NCBI RefSeq assembly: GCF_000020525.1
Contig: NC_011026.1
Location: 912,001 to 976,000 of the forward strand
Length of the DNA stretch: 64,000 nt
Origin: Chloroherpeton thalassium ATCC 35110
Lineage (GTDB): Bacteria > Bacteroidota > Chlorobiia > Chlorobiales > Chloroherpetonaceae
Direction: 5' to 3'
Shown here: positions 8,966 to 54,320 of the stretch, piece by piece
Layout of the letters: each line of letters starts with the position of its first letter
Position numbering within the stretch: the first letter of the stretch is position 1
Position numbers and translations under genes: made by a program
Notes under the pieces: generated by a model
The model's input: the letters and a program-made list of their open reading frames with translations, nothing else
Databases searched by the model: none
Told to the model about the DNA's origin: nothing

Positions 8966-11725
8966 ATGCACAAGAAAATAAATAGCAGCATTGCCGTTGT
9001 CGTTCTCATCATTGCGCAGATTTTGTATCTGCTAACCATGGCGCCGACATTCTCATTCTGGGATTGCGGCGAATTCATTGCGACCGCCTACACGCTCGGC
9101 GTCCCGCACCCGCCCGGCGCGCCATTCTTCTTGATTGTCGGCAGGCTCTTTTCCATGATTCCCTTTTTTGAAGACATCGGCGCACGGGTCAATCTCATCA
9201 GTACGATTTCCAGTTCCGTCACCGTGATGCTGACTTATTTAATTATCGTCCGCTTCATCATTCTTTACCGCGACAAAAACCCGAACGACTGGTCGCTTTC
9301 CGAGAAAATTTCCGCTTATGGCTCGGGCGTCGTCGGCTCGCTCGCGCTGGCATTTTCCGATAGTTTTTGGTTCAACGCGGTGGAAACGGAAGTCTATGCC
9401 GCCTCGATTTTTTTCACGGCCATTGTGATTTGGCTAATTCTAAAATGGAACGAAGAAGCTGATCAGGAAGGCAACGAACGCTGGCTCATGGTGCTGATGT
9501 ACATGATGGGACTTTCTATCGGCGTTCACCTGTTGAACTTGCTGGCGATTTTCGCCATCGCGCTGGTTTATTATTATCACCGCTATGAAGTGAACGTGAA
9601 ATCGTTCATTTGGCTTATCGTGATTTCGTCCGGCCTGTTTTTCCTGATTTATCCGGGCATCATTAAGTTTTTACCGGCATTGATGAACAGCGTCTCGCCG
9701 TGGATTGCCGTGGTTGCGGCAGCTGGACTCGGCTACGCGATTTATTACACGCAAAAAGAGCGGATGCGCATCATGAACACCATTGTGGTGTCGCTCTTTT
9801 TGATTGTGCTGGGCTACACGACTTACACCGTCATTTTCATTCGTGCGCAGGCCGACCCACCGATTAACGAAAACGCGCCAACCACGATGAAAACTTTCCA
9901 TTCGTACCTGAACCGCGAACAATATGGCGACTTGCCGCTCTGGCCGCGCCGCTGGTCGAGCGACCCAACCCATCAAAGAAATTATAGCAAATACGACAGC
10001 GAGTTCGATTACTTCTGGAATTACCAATTAGTTCACATGTACGCGCGTTATTTCGGCTGGCAATTCATCGGGCGCGCAGGCGATGTGCAAGATAGCGGCG
10101 TCGATTGGTCAAAGCTTTGGGGATTGCCCTTTGTGCTGGGAATGTTCGGCATGTATCACCACTTCCGGCGACAATGGACAATGGGACTCGTTGTCGGCGC
10201 GCTCTTCATGGTGACGGGCTTTGCGCTGATTCTTTACCTAAACCAAACCGAGCCGCAACCGCGCGAACGAGATTATAGCTATGTCGGCAGCTTTTTCGCC
10301 TTCGCCATTTGGATTGGCATCGGCATCGACGGGTTGTTTGAAGCTCTGCGCGAAAGCTTTCGGGACGAAAAAACGCTCGTGCCTGGCGCTGCGGCGCTTT
10401 GCCTCTGCGGATTGCTTTTTGTCGACGGGCGCATGCTTCAGGTCAATTATTACGACCACAGCCGTGCAAATAATTACAGCCCTTGGGATTATGCTTATAA
10501 TCTTTTGCAAAGCTGCGACAAAGACGCTGTGCTTTTCACAAATGGCGACAACGACACTTTCCCGCTTTGGTATTTGCAGGAAGTCGCCCGCATCAGAACC
10601 GATGTGCGCGTGGTGAATTTAAGCCTTGCCAACACCGATTGGTACATTTTGCAACTCAAAAATGAATCTCCGCGCGGGGCGAAAAAAGTTAAGTTCCGAC
10701 TTTCCGACGATCAAATTCGCCAGCTTTCCTACATGCGTTGGGATGCGAAGCGGATTTCGTTGCCCGTTCCGCAAAACAAAATAACGCCGCGCGGCGATCT
10801 GATTACAAGCGAAACCGACACAACCGATATTCACGCACCCAAGCCGCCGGCTCAGCTTGTGGATAAAATTGAATGGACATTCAGCCCCGCGATTAGCGTT
10901 CCAGGACGCTCCGGCGAACAGCCGCAAGGCTTCATTCGCGCACAAGATGTGGTCGTTTATGAAGTGGTGGCAAACAATATTTGGGAGCGCCCTGTTTATT
11001 TTGCCATCACGGTTAGCGAAAGCAACATGATTGGCCTGAACCAATATCTGCGCTTGGACGGCTTGGCCTATAAAATCGTGCCGGTTAAATCCAGCAAAGC
11101 GTTTGATTATGTCGAGCCGGACATTTTGTACGGCAAGCTGATGAACACCTTTCAATATCGCAATCTCGGAAACGAAGATGTGTATTATGAGGAAACCACA
11201 CGGCGCATGGTCAGCAACTACAAGAATATTTTCATGCGACTCGCCGCCGAATATGCCACTTCGCCAAACGCGTCTTCCGAAATTAAAACGGCGGACGGCA
11301 GCATGAAACGCGTTCAAAATAAAGATCTCGCGATCAAAGTATTGGATAAAGCAGAGGAAATTTTGCCGAATGAGCGCTACGAAATCGATTATCGGTTGCT
11401 GAGCGGCGTCATCAGTCTTTATGCAAACCTCGGCGAAAACAGCAAAGCGCGCGCGCTGTTGCCGGAACTTCAGGAAAAAGCGAATCAATACGATTCAGGT
11501 GGAGATCCCAGACCGAAGTTTGTGCTTGCACAGGCATATAAAGAAGTCGGTGCTTACGAACAAGCCGAAGCGCTCTACCAAGAACTTTACAGCAGATTTC
11601 AAGATCCGATGCTCAAACAAGAGCTTAATGAGATTCGACGCACTTTGGGAAGAAACACAACCGGAAATGACGCCAGTGCATCGGAGAGCTCACTTGATTC
11701 GATCGAAAAAACTTTACAGCCATGA
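8966..11725 (+). CDS. Large multi-pass membrane protein, DUF2723 (glycosyltransferase-like)
   Basis: A 919-residue protein whose N-terminal half has about ten to twelve membrane helices and the DUF2723 signature FWDCGEFIATAYTLGVPHPPG. Members resemble GT-C/protein O-mannosyltransferase folds (TMEM260-like) and are common in Bacteroidetes and Chlorobi; substrate is not known. A soluble part starts near residue 500 (LFTNGDNDTFPLWYLQE), and the last 150 residues look like TPR-type helices (KVLDKAEEILPNERYEID, KARALLPELQEKANQ). Its stop overlaps the lpxA start as ATGA, so the two are translationally coupled, which ties it to envelope assembly. Confidence 0.85.
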   Translation: MHKKINSSIAVVVLIIAQILYLLTMAPTFSFWDCGEFIATAYTLGVPHPPGAPFFLIVGRLFSMIPFFEDIGARVNLISTISSSVTVMLTYLIIVRFIILYRDKNPNDWSLSEKISAYGSGVVGSLALAFSDSFWFNAVETEVYAASIFFTAIVIWLILKWNEEADQEGNERWLMVLMYMMGLSIGVHLLNLLAIFAIALVYYYHRYEVNVKSFIWLIVISSGLFFLIYPGIIKFLPALMNSVSPWIAVVAAAGLGYAIYYTQKERMRIMNTIVVSLFLIVLGYTTYTVIFIRAQADPPINENAPTTMKTFHSYLNREQYGDLPLWPRRWSSDPTHQRNYSKYDSEFDYFWNYQLVHMYARYFGWQFIGRAGDVQDSGVDWSKLWGLPFVLGMFGMYHHFRRQWTMGLVVGALFMVTGFALILYLNQTEPQPRERDYSYVGSFFAFAIWIGIGIDGLFEALRESFRDEKTLVPGAAALCLCGLLFVDGRMLQVNYYDHSRANNYSPWDYAYNLLQSCDKDAVLFTNGDNDTFPLWYLQEVARIRTDVRVVNLSLANTDWYILQLKNESPRGAKKVKFRLSDDQIRQLSYMRWDAKRISLPVPQNKITPRGDLITSETDTTDIHAPKPPAQLVDKIEWTFSPAISVPGRSGEQPQGFIRAQDVVVYEVVANNIWERPVYFAITVSESNMIGLNQYLRLDGLAYKIVPVKSSKAFDYVEPDILYGKLMNTFQYRNLGNEDVYYEETTRRMVSNYKNIFMRLAAEYATSPNASSEIKTADGSMKRVQNKDLAIKVLDKAEEILPNERYEIDYRLLSGVISLYANLGENSKARALLPELQEKANQYDSGGDPRPKFVLAQAYKEVGAYEQAEALYQELYSRFQDPMLKQELNEIRRTLGRNTTGNDASASESSLDSIEKTLQP

Positions 11726-48310: not shown

Positions 48311-48976
48311 ATGCCTGATTCAAGTAACGTCATTATTGCCCCTTCGATTCTTTCTGCTGATTTTACGAACCTTCGCGGTGCAATTGAACTGGCCGAAAAA
48401 GCTGGCGCCGACTGGATTCATTGCGATGTGATGGATGGCATGTTTGTGCCAAATATTACGTTTGGCCCGTTCATTGTGGAAGCCGTTAGCCGCTGCACGG
48501 AGCTGATCATCGACACGCATTTGATGATTGCCGATCCTGATCGCTACATCAAAGAGTTTGTGGCTGCCGGTTCGCATCAAGTCACGGTGCATCAGGAAGA
48601 GTGCAAGCATTTGCATCGCACGGTTGATTTTATCAAATCTTGCGGCGCAAAGGCTGGCGTTTCGCTCAATCCGTCGACGAATGTTTCCACGCTGGAGGAC
48701 ATTTTGCCCGACCTCGATTTGGTTTTGATTATGTCGGTGAATCCAGGATTTGGCGGACAAAAATTCATCAAGTCGGCCATTGATAAAATCAAAAAGCTCG
48801 CTCAACTTCGTCAGGAAAAAAATCCAGATTTGGTGATTGCCATCGATGGCGGGATTAGTCCGAAAAACGCGGGCGAAGTGGTTGCTGCGGGTGGAAACGC
48901 GCTGATTGCCGGTTCAGCATTTTTCAAAGCCGAAGACCCATTTGAGGTGGTCAAAAAAATGAAAGGCGTTTCTTAG
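48311..48976 (+). CDS. rpe: Ribulose-phosphate 3-epimerase
   Basis: A 221-residue TIM-barrel enzyme interconverting ribulose-5-phosphate and xylulose-5-phosphate. Start APSILSADFTNL, the metal-binding HCDVMDGMFVPNITFG, DTHLMI, MSVNPGFGGQKFI and the phosphate site IDGGI / AGSAFF are all present. Its TAG shares bases with the TAA of the convergent gene on the other strand (four-base overlap at 48973-48976). Confidence 0.97.
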   Translation: MPDSSNVIIAPSILSADFTNLRGAIELAEKAGADWIHCDVMDGMFVPNITFGPFIVEAVSRCTELIIDTHLMIADPDRYIKEFVAAGSHQVTVHQEECKHLHRTVDFIKSCGAKAGVSLNPSTNVSTLEDILPDLDLVLIMSVNPGFGGQKFIKSAIDKIKKLAQLRQEKNPDLVIAIDGGISPKNAGEVVAAGGNALIAGSAFFKAEDPFEVVKKMKGVS

Positions 48977-51165
48977 TAAAGCCGCAATCTTTCCGAAACG
49001 AATCGCTGTTTTGCCGCCGTGCCGCTTAACTTTTCACTTATCTGCTGAGCGCGAGCGGCGGCATTTTCTGCTAAATCTTTCCTTCCCGTTTGCTGCGCCG
49101 CGTTCAAAATCAGCCATTGTCGGTGAAATTCGATCTCCGGTTTGGAAAACGGCGCAAGCGGCAAAAGCAAATGAAGCACCTCTTCATAACGACTTATTTC
49201 ATAAAGTTCTACGCCGAGCAAATACGCCACGAGTGATTTTTGCGTGCTTGTTTGGGCGGAATCGAGCGCCGTTTGCAGCAAAAAAATCTTTTCTTCTGCA
49301 CAGAGAAGCGACGAGATCGACTTGAAATCAAACTCGGTTTCTGCCAGCGAAATTCGAATCGCCGCGGCGAGGCTGTAACTAAAAAAAAGCTTTTCGCTGT
49401 AAATTTTTTCCAGTTCTCGGACGGCGATTTCTTTCTGGCCAAAGCCCGTCCAGAGCCGCGCGCTGGCGATGGTAAATCGCGCCGGAAGCGTTTTTTCTAA
49501 TTTTTCGGCCAACGAATCCGCCTCAGCAAACGCATTTTGCGGCGAGCCAAACCCATTTGCCGCGCCATAAATTTTTGCCGCAAGCAAGCCATGAATTGCC
49601 GTTGGATTTTTTCCTTCCGTCATGTCCAACGCCGTTTGATACAGCGATTTGGCAAGCGGATAATTTTTTTCTTCAAATGCCGCCCAAGCTTCACGCAAAC
49701 TTCGCGCCACCGTGTGCGGGCATTCGGTTTCAAAAATTGATTTGCGCGAGAATCGATAGCGCACATCATTTTCAAGCGCTTGCGAAATAGGAACTTCCTG
49801 AAGCCAGGCTTTCCATTCCGAAATCAATTTCTCCGGCGATTTTTGATAAACTTCCTCAAACGCCGCCCACGCATAGGCTTGTTTGAATTTTTCCATGCCA
49901 TATTTCTCAAGCAAAAATTGGACGAGCGAGCCCATCAGCGTGTAGCTCATCGAGCCCAGTCCCGTCCAAAAACCAAACGCGCCAAGCAATTTTTCAGGAT
50001 GTTTTGGAGCCATATCGAGTTTAAAAAGAGCGGCGGCGTAGTCGTGCTGTCGCCAGCTTATATCGGGCGTTTCGAGCGCGACGGCAACGCCTTCCAAAAT
50101 TCCGATGCTCGTGGAAAGTCCCAAATGCGGAATGCCATACGCGCCAAAAAGAATATGCACGAGTTCGTGGCGAATGGAACGCTCAAAAGCCTCTTCGGTA
50201 ATGTGAATTTCGTTCAGCCAAATTTTTGTAAACTCGGTTTGGTCAGCGCCTGTGAAGCGCTTTTTGGTGGCAGAATTCGGGTAAATAAAAATATGAACTT
50301 TGGGCAAAGTCGCCATCCCGATGATGCGCTGCAAATCTTGAAGTTCGTGGCGAAGGCGCTTTTCGTAATATTTTCGCTTTTGCAATGGAAGCGTTGGGCT
50401 GGCAAACCAAAGTCCAGCACTATCGATTGGCGCGAGCGTTTTTTTTATCGCTTGATGCGACGATATGATGCCAAACGACTCGTTTCGTCCGGCGAGCAAA
50501 AGTCCCAAAATCAGAAGCGGCAAAGCCAAAAACGCCCAAGCAGGAAACCGTTGCAAAATTTTTGAAAAAAGTTCGTTTTTGGGGAAAGACGAAATTCGAT
50601 CCCGAAAGGCAATCAGGAAAAATGCGCTGGAAAACAGTAGGGTTTCGAACCGAAAAATAAAATAGCGCGCGTCCAGGACAATGGTTTTGTCGTAAATCGT
50701 GCCAGCGAAAAAACCGAAAAAGTGGTTGAAAAAATAAATTTGTGGCGAGGCGTAAAGACGATGCAAAATCGGAACCAGCAAAAGCAAGAGCCAAATGAGC
50801 AAAAATGCAGTCTTTTGCCACTTTTCCAAAACCGAGCGAATGGCAACCGCAAGCGAGAACGCAAACAGACTGCCCATCGCCGGGCCCAAAATGTAAAAAA
50901 CGAGCCCCTCGAAATAATCGCAATTGCGAACGAAAAGCATGTTTAGCAGCATGGCGAACGGTGGCAAAACGATCAGCAACAGAGACGCGCGCCATTTTTG
51001 CAGAGCATTCGATTGTTTAGCAAGCCACAAAAGCCCGATTGTAGGCGGCAACGCGATTCCCAACACGAAAGAGCATTCGTATCCTAAAAGATTCAATAGC
51101 GGCGTTCGCGAAAGCACAAGCGTAAGAAGAGCAACGAACGCAATAGCAATTCGAGATGGCGTCAT
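48973..51165 (-). CDS. Multi-pass membrane protein with gluzincin-type metallopeptidase domain and TPR-like tail
   Basis: A 730-residue three-part protein. Residues 1-230 have about seven membrane helices. Residues 240-460 look like a peptidase-MA/gluzincin domain: HELVH at 333-337 (the zinc-binding HExxH) and an E358 in the EGVAVALE helix as third ligand. The remainder is helical with repeat-like spacing (NYPLAKSLYQTALDMTEG; VRELEKIYSEKLF), resembling TPR. If correct, the protease site lies outside the membrane, presumably in the periplasm. No family name can be given with confidence. The tail end overlaps rpe on the opposite strand. Confidence 0.7.
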   Translation of the reverse strand: MTPSRIAIAFVALLTLVLSRTPLLNLLGYECSFVLGIALPPTIGLLWLAKQSNALQKWRASLLLIVLPPFAMLLNMLFVRNCDYFEGLVFYILGPAMGSLFAFSLAVAIRSVLEKWQKTAFLLIWLLLLLVPILHRLYASPQIYFFNHFFGFFAGTIYDKTIVLDARYFIFRFETLLFSSAFFLIAFRDRISSFPKNELFSKILQRFPAWAFLALPLLILGLLLAGRNESFGIISSHQAIKKTLAPIDSAGLWFASPTLPLQKRKYYEKRLRHELQDLQRIIGMATLPKVHIFIYPNSATKKRFTGADQTEFTKIWLNEIHITEEAFERSIRHELVHILFGAYGIPHLGLSTSIGILEGVAVALETPDISWRQHDYAAALFKLDMAPKHPEKLLGAFGFWTGLGSMSYTLMGSLVQFLLEKYGMEKFKQAYAWAAFEEVYQKSPEKLISEWKAWLQEVPISQALENDVRYRFSRKSIFETECPHTVARSLREAWAAFEEKNYPLAKSLYQTALDMTEGKNPTAIHGLLAAKIYGAANGFGSPQNAFAEADSLAEKLEKTLPARFTIASARLWTGFGQKEIAVRELEKIYSEKLFFSYSLAAAIRISLAETEFDFKSISSLLCAEEKIFLLQTALDSAQTSTQKSLVAYLLGVELYEISRYEEVLHLLLPLAPFSKPEIEFHRQWLILNAAQQTGRKDLAENAAARAQQISEKLSGTAAKQRFVSERLRLY

Positions 51166-51296
51166 TTGATAAATTGTAGAATTTCGCTGTTCTTTTAAGA
51201 ATTACTTCCCGATCTAAATTGTCATCTCCGTAACTAATCGCATCCAATTGAGGGAGATGCGTCTGAGGAAAAAATAGCCCTCAATATGTTTGAAGT

Positions 51297-52442
51297 CTAT
51301 CGCTCATTATCAAAAATATTGAGATAGGGTTCGAAAATGAAGATGCGATTTCGGCTTTGGCCGGTCATTTCCTTTAGATAACCATGTTCTTGCATCTTCC
51401 TAACTAAGTCATTTGCCGCTTTGTAGCTCAGATTACATTTTTCCCTTGCTTGCTCGATCGTTGTAAACGGATTTTGGAACAGCACGTTTAATAGCGCCAG
51501 CGCCGAATGGCTACGACGCCCAAACAATGAACTGATTTCGCCCTCGATAGACGCTTTTAATTCTAAAATTGAAGTGAGCGTTTCTACCGCTTTGGTTGCG
51601 GTCTGTTCAATTCCGACTAAAAAATACTTTATCCATTGCAGCATATCATTTTGAGTCCGAACCTTTGTGAGGTTATCGTAGTATAGCCCCTTGTTTTTTT
51701 CAAAAAAGAGCGAAAGGTAAAGCAACGGTTTGTCCAGTATGCTTTCTGAAACCAAATACAATGTTATCATTAACCGCCCGATGCGACCGTTTCCATCGAG
51801 AAACGGATGAATGGTTTCAAATTGATAATGGGCAATCGCAATCCGAATTAGCGAAGGGACGTTGATTTCTTCGTTATTGAGGAATTTTTCAAGGTCGCTC
51901 ATTAACTCATTTACCAATTGGTGATGGGGCGGAACAAATACCGCATCTGCCAACGAATTGCCGCCAATCCAGTTTTGGCTTGTCCTGTATTCGCCCGGCA
52001 GTTTATGTTGCCCTCTAACGCTTTGTAGAAGAATTTGGTGGGTATTCTTTAATAATCGGGAAGAGACCGGCAACTTTTTTAAGGCTTCAACGGCTTCATT
52101 TAAAGCGCGAATGTAGTTATTGACTTCCAGCCAGTCATTTCTTCTCTCAGGCCGAATTTCTTCCAACGGAAGCAATGCTTCGTCCATATTCGTTTGAGTG
52201 CCTTCGATTCGACTCGACACAACGGCTTCTTTGGTCACATGAAGTTGGATAAACAAATCGATGTTGGGGACTAAGCGGGCAAACGAATTTAATTCCCCCA
52301 ATTTGACGGCGGCTTTTTCCAATAACCGATTAACGGACGGCGTTTTCCAAACCCACTCATCGTTAATGGCCGATGGGACAAAATATTTATAGCCATAGGA
52401 TTTTTCGAACCGTCCTGACCGGTATTTTTCTAATTCTATCAT
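51297..52442 (-). CDS. Fic-family AMP-transferase with built-in inhibitory helix and winged HTH
   Basis: A 381-residue Fic protein. The active site is HPFLDGNGRIGR (212-223), with catalytic H212, the full consensus. The inhibitory motif (S/T)xxxE(G/N) is S76-S77-R78-I79-E80-G81, N-terminal, so a class II, self-inhibited enzyme that moves AMP (or another nucleotide) to target hydroxyls. The C-terminal 70 residues form a winged helix-turn-helix (ALALLNVLFQNPFTTIEQAR). DNA binding plus the repeated sites just upstream suggest it represses its own gene. No separate toxin/antitoxin partner is present. Confidence 0.93.
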   Translation of the reverse strand: MIELEKYRSGRFEKSYGYKYFVPSAINDEWVWKTPSVNRLLEKAAVKLGELNSFARLVPNIDLFIQLHVTKEAVVSSRIEGTQTNMDEALLPLEEIRPERRNDWLEVNNYIRALNEAVEALKKLPVSSRLLKNTHQILLQSVRGQHKLPGEYRTSQNWIGGNSLADAVFVPPHHQLVNELMSDLEKFLNNEEINVPSLIRIAIAHYQFETIHPFLDGNGRIGRLMITLYLVSESILDKPLLYLSLFFEKNKGLYYDNLTKVRTQNDMLQWIKYFLVGIEQTATKAVETLTSILELKASIEGEISSLFGRRSHSALALLNVLFQNPFTTIEQAREKCNLSYKAANDLVRKMQEHGYLKEMTGQSRNRIFIFEPYLNIFDNER

Positions 52443-52464: not shown

Positions 52465-52519
52465 TCTTATTTTACTTTTCGGCGCGAAAGTAAAATAACG
52501 AAAATCTTATTTTACTTTC
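52465..52519. promoter_or_regulatory. Three-copy operator-like repeat upstream of the Fic gene
   Basis: TCTTATTTTACTTT occurs at 52465-52478 and again at 52505-52518, 40 bases apart. Between them, AAAGTAAAATAA at 52487-52498 is the inverted copy. The first and second form a 12-base-arm palindrome around tcggcgcg. The block starts 23 bases before the Fic start codon on the minus strand, in promoter position. Binding by the Fic C-terminal wHTH is inference. Confidence 0.6.
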
Positions 52520-52807: not shown

Positions 52808-54259
52808 TTACTTCCCGATACAAAACCGATCAAAAATATTATTCAAAATATCGTCGGTCGTTACTTTTCCGATGATACTGCCGATTTGGTGCAGGACTTC
52901 TCGTAGGTCGGAGGCGATGAGTTCGGTTTCCGCGCCCTCAATAAGCAGCTCTCGGGCGACTTGCAATCGCTCCAGCGCATTTTTGATGGCTTCAAAATGC
53001 CGCTGATTTGTGATCACCAAACTGCCTTCGTTTAGCTTTTCAAGCCCCGTCGCCAGCGTTTTCATCTTTTGTCGCAGTTCCGACAAGCCCTCGCGGCGAA
53101 GGGCGGAAATCGGGACGACTTCGATATGTTCTTGCTCATCCGGGGCGTTTGCGAAATTCGGTGCGCCCGTTACGCAGTCAATTTTGTTGGCGACGATGAA
53201 AAATTTGGCGTGGGCGCTTTTTTTTCGCAACGCTAAAATCTCGGTGCGTTCGGCTTCCGTGATTTTCTCTGTGGCGTCATGGACGAAAATTACGAGGTCG
53301 GCTTCCGTAATTTTTTCGTAGCTGCGCCTGATGCCTTCGCTTTCGAGCGCGTCGTCGGAAAGTCGCAGGCCTGCCGTGTCAATCAAGCGAAACGGCACGC
53401 CGTCAAGGACGAAGCTTTCCTCGATATAGTCGCGCGTGGTACCGGGAACATGGCTCACGATGGCGCGTTCCTTGCCGAGCAGCGCGTTCAGCAAGGTCGA
53501 TTTGCCCGCGTTCGGCCTGCCTACAATCGCCGTCGCAACGCCTTCCTTCACAAATTTCCCAAAACGAAATGTATTTGCCAGAGCCTCAAGCTCCGTTGCC
53601 ATCGCCGAAAGCCGCGCCGAAAGCGCCTCGCGGCTTTGAAATTCGACATCTTCCTCCGAAAAATCCAGCTCCAATTCGAGCATTGAACAAGCGTTTAAAA
53701 GCTCGGTTCGTAGCGAGCCGAGCTTCAGGGATAGGTCGCCCTTCAATTGCGAAATCGCCGAACGATAGGCGGTTTGGGTTTTCGCGTGAATCATTTCGCC
53801 GACGGCTTCGGCTTGCACCAAATCGATGCGCCCGTTCAGGAACGCGCGGCGCGTGAATTCGCCCGGTTCGGCCAAGCGGCAGCCGGCTTCGAGCAGGGTT
53901 TGCAAAACCGTCTCCGTCACAATCACGCCGCCGTGGCAGTTAAACTCCACCATGTCTTCCGTCGTGAACGAACGCGGCGCGCGATACACGATCGCCATCA
54001 CCTCGTCGATGAGTTCTCCGGCAAGATTGTTGAACCGTCCGTAATGCGCGGTGTGCGAGCGGCACGATGCGAAAGAAAAGTTGTCGCCGTCGATTTTGCG
54101 GAAAACCTTATCGGCAACGGCCAAAACGCCTTCGCCCGTCATGCGCACGATGGAAAGCGCCCCTTCGCCGACGGGCGTCGCTACGGCGGCAATCGCTTCA
54201 AGCTGCCCTTGCGGACGCGCCGGATGATGCCGGTCTTCAACAAAATGTAAATCGTCCAT
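52808..54259 (-). CDS. mnmE: tRNA modification GTPase MnmE
   Basis: From the ATG at 54259 the protein has 483 residues; a TTG 27 bases upstream is another possible start. MnmE works with MnmG to make 5-carboxymethylaminomethyl-uridine in tRNA wobble positions, using a folate-derived group. N-terminal tetrahydrofolate-binding domain with IAAVATPVGEGALSIVRMTG; G domain with GRPNAGKSTLLN, DTAG and NKID; the protein ends in FCIGK, the invariant C-(I/V)-G-K with catalytic Cys. Confidence 0.95.
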   Translation of the reverse strand: MDDLHFVEDRHHPARPQGQLEAIAAVATPVGEGALSIVRMTGEGVLAVADKVFRKIDGDNFSFASCRSHTAHYGRFNNLAGELIDEVMAIVYRAPRSFTTEDMVEFNCHGGVIVTETVLQTLLEAGCRLAEPGEFTRRAFLNGRIDLVQAEAVGEMIHAKTQTAYRSAISQLKGDLSLKLGSLRTELLNACSMLELELDFSEEDVEFQSREALSARLSAMATELEALANTFRFGKFVKEGVATAIVGRPNAGKSTLLNALLGKERAIVSHVPGTTRDYIEESFVLDGVPFRLIDTAGLRLSDDALESEGIRRSYEKITEADLVIFVHDATEKITEAERTEILALRKKSAHAKFFIVANKIDCVTGAPNFANAPDEQEHIEVVPISALRREGLSELRQKMKTLATGLEKLNEGSLVITNQRHFEAIKNALERLQVARELLIEGAETELIASDLREVLHQIGSIIGKVTTDDILNNIFDRFCIGK

Positions 54260-54320
54260 AATCGGATAGGTTTTGTTCTGATTCAACTGTTTAACAGCTT
54301 AAAAAGCTATGCGAATTGAC

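Follow-up and report, generated by a model that had tools for sequence, protein, structure and literature searches.

Phased alternating repeats beside SoFic-like fic genes as a probable operator read by the Fic protein's own winged helix

CccR (YPK_0951) of Yersinia pseudotuberculosis, a T6SS-secreted effector, represses its own expression via a C-terminal HTH that acts on inverted repeats in its own promoter, and the dimer is required for this (PMC9755527). The CccR operator, AGATAATCAT-N26-ATGATAATCT, has two 10-bp arms, the recognition helices of the dimer are 70.2 Å apart, and the regulatory and toxic activities of the protein are independent as reported (PMC9755527). In other words, the principle of a Fic-HTH protein repressing itself is already known from CccR (PMC9755527). 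Another Fic-wHTH dimer, CbFic2 (CBU_0822) of Coxiella burnetii, targets histone H3 and binds DNA via its wHTH; DNA binding induces its activity, an effect tested with random DNA only, and no specific site is known (PMC10628234). For SoFic, DNA binding has been stated as not demonstrated (PMC10628234). EcSofic of E. coli H397 is a toxic dimer for which the C-terminal domain is needed, and the accessible part of that report describes no operator for either SoFic or EcSofic (PMC12249575). BrxR-type WYL-wHTH proteins, according to the accessible parts of two reports, are transcriptional regulators tied to phage-defence loci (PMC9122601, PMC9122589). On the same partial basis, BrxR is a dedicated regulator without an AMP-transferase domain, whereas at the locus described here the effector enzyme itself carries the predicted DNA reader.

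We analysed a window of 64,000 nucleotides of the Chloroherpeton thalassium ATCC 35110 genome (a single contig of 3,293,456 bp); unless stated otherwise, coordinates refer to this window. On its minus strand, mnmE (52808-54286) is followed by fic (51297-52442) and by an unrelated-looking gene (48973-51165). Profile searches and structure comparison identify the fic product (381 aa) as a SoFic-like Fic protein consisting of Fic_N, Fic and a C-terminal winged helix. Both signatures of the SoFic anti-phage family are present in addition to Fic_N. The class II inhibitory motif (S/T)xxxE(G/N) reads SSRIEG (residues 76-81; 52200-52217, minus strand), with S76, E80 and G81 invariant in the alignment. 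The catalytic motif HPFx[D/E]GN[G/K]R was located by alignment as HPFLDGNGR (residues 212-220; 51783-51809, minus strand), and its histidine, H212, is invariant among the 13 homologues aligned. The preliminary description of the locus had assigned the protein its own C-terminal wHTH, and the AlphaFold2 model bears this out: a winged-helix domain is formed by residues 308-372 (51327-51521, minus strand), a region in which the Pfam family HTH_24 scores just under its cut-off. The mean pLDDT of the model is 82, rising to about 90 over most of residues 308-360. The model places the recognition helix, which holds K341 and D345 of the covariation scan described below, at residues 340-352 (51387-51425, minus strand).

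The same domain order is found in SoFic (3eqx, 3zcn) and EcSofic, and the fold is shared with S. oneidensis SoFic (3zcn) over 346 residues (Z 34.5, 3.0 Å), although the protein is only 26% identical to SoFic. The PADLOC SoFic profile matches it strongly (E 1.8e-122, 407 bits), whereas the NCBIfam SoFic equivalog NF046030 gives 180.7 bits, below the curated cut-off of 550. Judged by these profiles, the protein is SoFic-like and not a SoFic equivalog, and phage protection would be a property extrapolated from the family. A class I Fic toxin-antitoxin module (phd-doc, FicT-FicA) was rejected: the inhibitory motif and the wHTH both reside in one protein, and among minus-strand ORFs of at least 60 aa there is none between mnmE and fic that could be a separate antitoxin gene giving an inhibitory helix or a DNA binder. 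Like CbFic2, the protein combines Fic with a wHTH and, like CccR, it is a class II Fic enzyme with a C-terminal HTH and inverted repeats in its own promoter region.

These repeats differ from the CccR operator. The 14-mer TCTTATTTTACTTT occurs at 52465-52478 and again at 52505-52518, so the two direct repeats are exactly 40 bases apart (start to start), as originally noted. The inverted copy reported between them also exists, but it was called perfect, and the identity is perfect over only 12 of the 14 letters, namely TTATTTTACTTT (13 letters against the distal copy). The array therefore consists of three copies of TTATTTTACTTT, at 52467 (+), 52487 (-) and 52507 (+), with alternating orientation, 8-bp spacers and steps of exactly 20 bp. 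The gene-proximal copy (52467-52478, plus strand) and the gene-distal copy (52507-52518, plus strand) enclose the inverted one (52487-52498, minus strand), which reads AAAGTAAAATAA on the plus strand. Taken pairwise, the copies make up a gene-proximal 'TTA-out' dyad, TTATTTTACTTT-N8-AAAGTAAAATAA (52467-52498), and a gene-distal 'TTA-in' dyad, AAAGTAAAATAA-N8-TTATTTTACTTT (52487-52518); in homologues, the former has the more constant spacing of the two. The fic start codon (52442-52440, minus strand) is separated from the 14-mer by 22 bases and from the 12-mer by 24; the distance given initially was 23 bases. CccR-type 10-bp arms 26 bp apart are absent; the arms here are 12 bp long and present in three copies.

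Single copies of TTATTTTACTTT are unremarkable, since the DNA is AT-rich: the genome has 79 sites with at most one mismatch versus 114 for the reversed control. Exact single copies are also present at genome positions 1980375 and 2232205. The dyad TTATTTTACTTT-N8-AAAGTAAAATAA, on the other hand, is unique: with up to 3 mismatches allowed, it is found at this locus only in 3.29 Mb, and the reversed control gives 0. The triple array scores above all 60 dinucleotide shuffles of its own region. A wide regulon was rejected in two genomes, as the dyad is found only at this locus here and only beside fic in a Pedobacter homologue (L078). Given this single dyad locus in both genomes, the array looks like a local, dedicated operator. 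The minus strand of the window yielded no recognisable sigma-70-like promoter, a result that is uninformative for this phylum.

Relatives of the Fic protein were drawn from the phylum, viral contigs, named genomes of many phyla and further regions, and were reduced to 124 non-redundant homologues (<75% identity). Three-copy alternating arrays were scored against dinucleotide shuffles, with periods of 30-50 allowed. The architecture recurs before homologous genes, which was the check proposed in the preliminary description and one that its proposal passes: the upstream region scores above all 60 shuffles in 61 of the 124 homologues, and the period is 40 or 41 bp in 56 of these 61. When the period was confined to 39-42, z>=3 was reached in 77 homologues. 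Control stretches with a period of 40/41 and z>=3 numbered 1 of 120 further upstream and 0 of 124 inside the gene. Overall, about 50-60% of the 124 homologues have a clear alternating array upstream, and roughly a third are without a clear array. A scan of 416 kb of loci returned 129 arrays, as opposed to 3 in shuffled DNA; they are concentrated within 200 bp before the fic start codon and within 100 bp past the stop. Usually an array has 3 or 4 copies, and the number reaches 8. These eight alternating copies are found in the upstream 170 bp of one homologue (L112), following each other in 20/21-bp steps without a break.

The distance from the array end to the fic start codon has a median of 22 bp, and for most arrays it is 16-36 bp. 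Boxes of the Bacteroidota -7 type, TANNTTTG, number 35 versus 14.1 expected, 18 of them being within 35 bp of the array centre. By record title, the carriers belong to Bacteroidota, Pseudomonadota, Planctomycetota, Acidobacteriota, Verrucomicrobiota, Patescibacteria, KSB1, WOR-3, Delongbacteria and Gastranaerophilales. In the closest homologue (L064) the three words are all kept and the spacers and flanks are changed. SoFic equivalogs above the curated cut-off share the same kind of array with the fic gene studied here, with arrays that have a period of 40 and are built from another word, TCGACATAT, and in a neighbouring gammaproteobacterial clade TCTATACATG arrays have a period of 41.

To compare repeat letters, words were registered at the TTA end, and 12 whose geometry was non-canonical were dropped, which introduces some freedom into the analysis. 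Once registered, the majority of words resemble TTATTTTA(C/G)TTT. From 5' end to 5' end, TAA..TTA measures 9 or 10 bp and the other dyad 31 (63 cases) or 32. The letters vary by lineage (for example, TTATTTTACTTT, TAAGTTTACTTT, TTAGTTAAAGAAA, TTATTTAAG, TTATTTGCA, TTATTTTAGGAT and TTATTTCATTTT), TTATTTGCA being the word of a 'STA-R' homologue. Across the homologues compared, the array geometry is fixed and the repeat letters are lineage-specific.

Word similarity follows the similarity of the recognition helix. The partial correlation, which controls for similarity in the Fic core and elsewhere in the C-terminus, is 0.296, and none of 1000 permutations gave a value as large; for the Fic core, the partial correlation in the same registered test is -0.026. 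Among 265 variable protein positions, corrected mutual information with the words is highest for K341 (1.78) and D345 (1.54), with the next position at 0.87. In the AlphaFold2 model, these residues come second and sixth in the predicted recognition helix, at positions through which such helices make base contacts. When residue 341 is K or R, word positions 8-9 tend to be AC (20:5 against 2:45). A first covariation test with unregistered 20-mers was weak (partial 0.103), with a higher value for the Fic core (0.261), and covariation is marginal among 36 disjoint nearest pairs (p=0.058). Nonetheless, because the repeat letters covary most with 341 and 345 in an unbiased scan of 265 positions, the wHTH of Fic itself is very probably the reader of the array, and its binding is predicted on these grounds.

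The same covariation bears on two other explanations. An unrelated regulator might bind the array and control fic, as repeats alone do not name their binder. Nothing specific favours such a regulator, however, and across phyla the letters follow the recognition helix of the adjacent Fic protein, a gene-by-gene match not expected of a host regulator; we consider this explanation very unlikely. The repeats might also act as RNA hairpins, either an attenuator or an RNA antitoxin. Indeed, a 13-bp hairpin is possible on the transcribed strand (z -2.4), but such a hairpin is formed by any inverted repeat. Moreover, direct copies resemble each other no less than complementary copies do, the period is held at 40/41 bp, and the words vary in step with a helix that recognises DNA, so that a function at the RNA level hardly seems credible.

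We therefore favour a self-operator: the C-terminal winged helix of Fic itself would read the three repeats as an operator array, and the bound protein likely shuts the fic promoter. We rate this explanation well ahead of even chances. Each 12-bp word would represent one half-site. Since the words alternate every 20 to 20.5 bp, or about two helical turns, the half-sites would all face the same side of the DNA, and two neighbouring ones could be spanned by a dimer whose recognition helices are about 70 Å apart. At 3.4 Å per bp, a step of 20-20.5 bp corresponds to 68-70 Å of B-DNA; this is close to the 70.2 Å between the CccR recognition helices, and by analogy the two may match. We infer binding with one dimer per dyad, and at least three half-sites might allow it to be cooperative. 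Since the array separates the fic start codon from the upstream gene, Fic bound there would likely shut the promoter, keeping a potentially toxic AMP-transferase scarce; the low amount of Fic would add to the effect of the built-in inhibitory helix. It is tempting to speculate that infection would then release Fic from the array.

Self-repression is the most likely effect, given the placement of arrays in the promoter region and the demonstrated autorepression by CccR. As an explanation, autorepression appears to be the best one, likely by analogy with a single experimental precedent, CccR, whose operator is different: here there are at least three arms, 20-20.5-bp steps and a letter code covarying across the family. 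The preliminary description had proposed that the enzyme senses or represses its own promoter, joining catalysis and transcription control. Its self-operator part gains support as far as DNA reading is concerned, from recurrence and from covariation with the recognition helix, and autorepression is made likely by placement, by the TANNTTTG boxes and by CccR. The other part, in which the enzyme 'senses' and catalysis through H212 is coupled to transcription, finds no support here, and the two activities of CccR are reported to be independent.

Control of its own promoter, also part of the original proposal, is not a full account of the array, because some arrays sit 3' of fic, a few of these facing convergent genes. 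The downstream stretch, chosen as a natural control, held real arrays: the best array lies just past the stop codon in 11 of 95 array-bearing homologues (about 10%). Their words follow the same residue-word code (L077, L034, L094, L153 and L023). In L078 and L079 the downstream array faces convergent genes, and in L034, L078 and L153 an array of the same word is present on both sides of fic. Downstream 'arrays' of L070, L053 and L144 were set aside, as they resemble terminators or AT-rich chance. Where fic overlaps the preceding gene, an upstream array is found in 0 of 5 cases, compared with 73 of 115 otherwise (p=0.008), and a downstream array in 3 of 5 compared with 11 of 108 otherwise, although these numbers are small. 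Thus, Fic is predicted to bind beside its own gene even where control of its own promoter would be impossible. The role of the 3' arrays may be the control of neighbours or the control of Fic activity by DNA.

As for neighbours, Fic might be a local controller of adjacent restriction-modification genes, similar to a C protein, with the array governing the adjacent operon segment. This would fit the order hsdS-fic-array-hsdR (L023/L202), an array before a restriction-type gene (L104) or a Mod-like gene (L197), the order array-fic-hsdM (L020 and L088) and the lack of upstream arrays where fic overlaps the preceding gene. However, the gene after fic in the window has no evident defence role and fic stands alone in many homologues. 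We consider such a role possible but doubtful. In both L020 and L088, fic comes first in an apparent type I restriction-modification operon, like a controller gene. In the hsdS-fic-hsdR locus of L202, three arrays lie between fic and hsdR (11130-11341, reverse-complement coordinates), in which two or more distinct words occur, TTATTAAAGATT and a TTAGTCAAGTTT-like one among them.

As for activity, the array might serve as a cis-acting DNA leash or activity switch that governs AMPylation instead of, or besides, transcription, in which case placement before or after fic would be equally good. Consistent with this, the 3' arrays obey the same residue-word code and some of them face convergent genes; CbFic2, also a Fic-wHTH protein, shows (de)AMPylation activity induced by DNA binding, and EcSofic toxicity needs the C-terminal domain. 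Against it, the promoter region is where most arrays are located (16-36 bp ahead of the start codon), and the regulatory and toxic activities of CccR were reported to be independent. On balance, this role seems unlikely. A combination could also be envisaged, in which the array is both an operator and a DNA partner in cis: Fic dimers parked upstream or downstream would be freed when infection disturbs the DNA or the promoter, and one binding event would set both the amount and the state of the enzyme. We regard this as rather improbable.

The surroundings of fic raise one more possibility, namely that a mobile cassette has the repeats as its ends or attachment sites. Here, as in L013, L069 and L127, fic adjoins the 3' end of mnmE, and the mnmE end (ATCGGGAAGTAA) recurs 78 bp past the fic stop codon as an exact 12-nt direct repeat (repeat pair 52808-52825 and 51202-51219, minus strand). 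In L034 and L078, in addition, arrays flank fic on both sides. The array is nevertheless inside the boundaries set by the mnmE repeats rather than at them, a single array without mnmE is what most loci show, and there is covariation between repeat letters and protein, which makes this origin of the repeats highly improbable. The mnmE-end repeats are laid out as one might expect from the integration of a 1.6-kb unit, and the mnmE-fic locus shows no recognisable integrase.

Within open-licence PMC papers, nothing was found on the phased alternating array, its conservation across the family, the 341/345 code or the 3' arrays, and these features appear undescribed in that literature. An operator may already have been described for the SoFic PDB entries 9tb0-9tcl, for which titles and papers were not found. 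How SoFic-type defence enzymes are silenced and released has been reported as an open question, and a conserved DNA target makes it testable. The array, its conservation, its fixed geometry and its covariation with recognition-helix residues are direct results of computation. The array offers a cognate site for DNA-binding and AMPylation assays, where the CbFic2 work used random DNA, and the residue-to-base code can be checked by specificity exchange. The 3' arrays, in which the DNA partner is kept without own-promoter control, point to a second role. An array of the same kind precedes the SoFic gene of E. coli S10, which is frameshifted in that genome, so that relatives should be workable in laboratory strains. 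The gene that comes next is also annotated as a Fic family protein and lacks such an array; the SoFic gene itself (L236, 3557-4632) adjoins mobH, ArdC and an integrase fragment.
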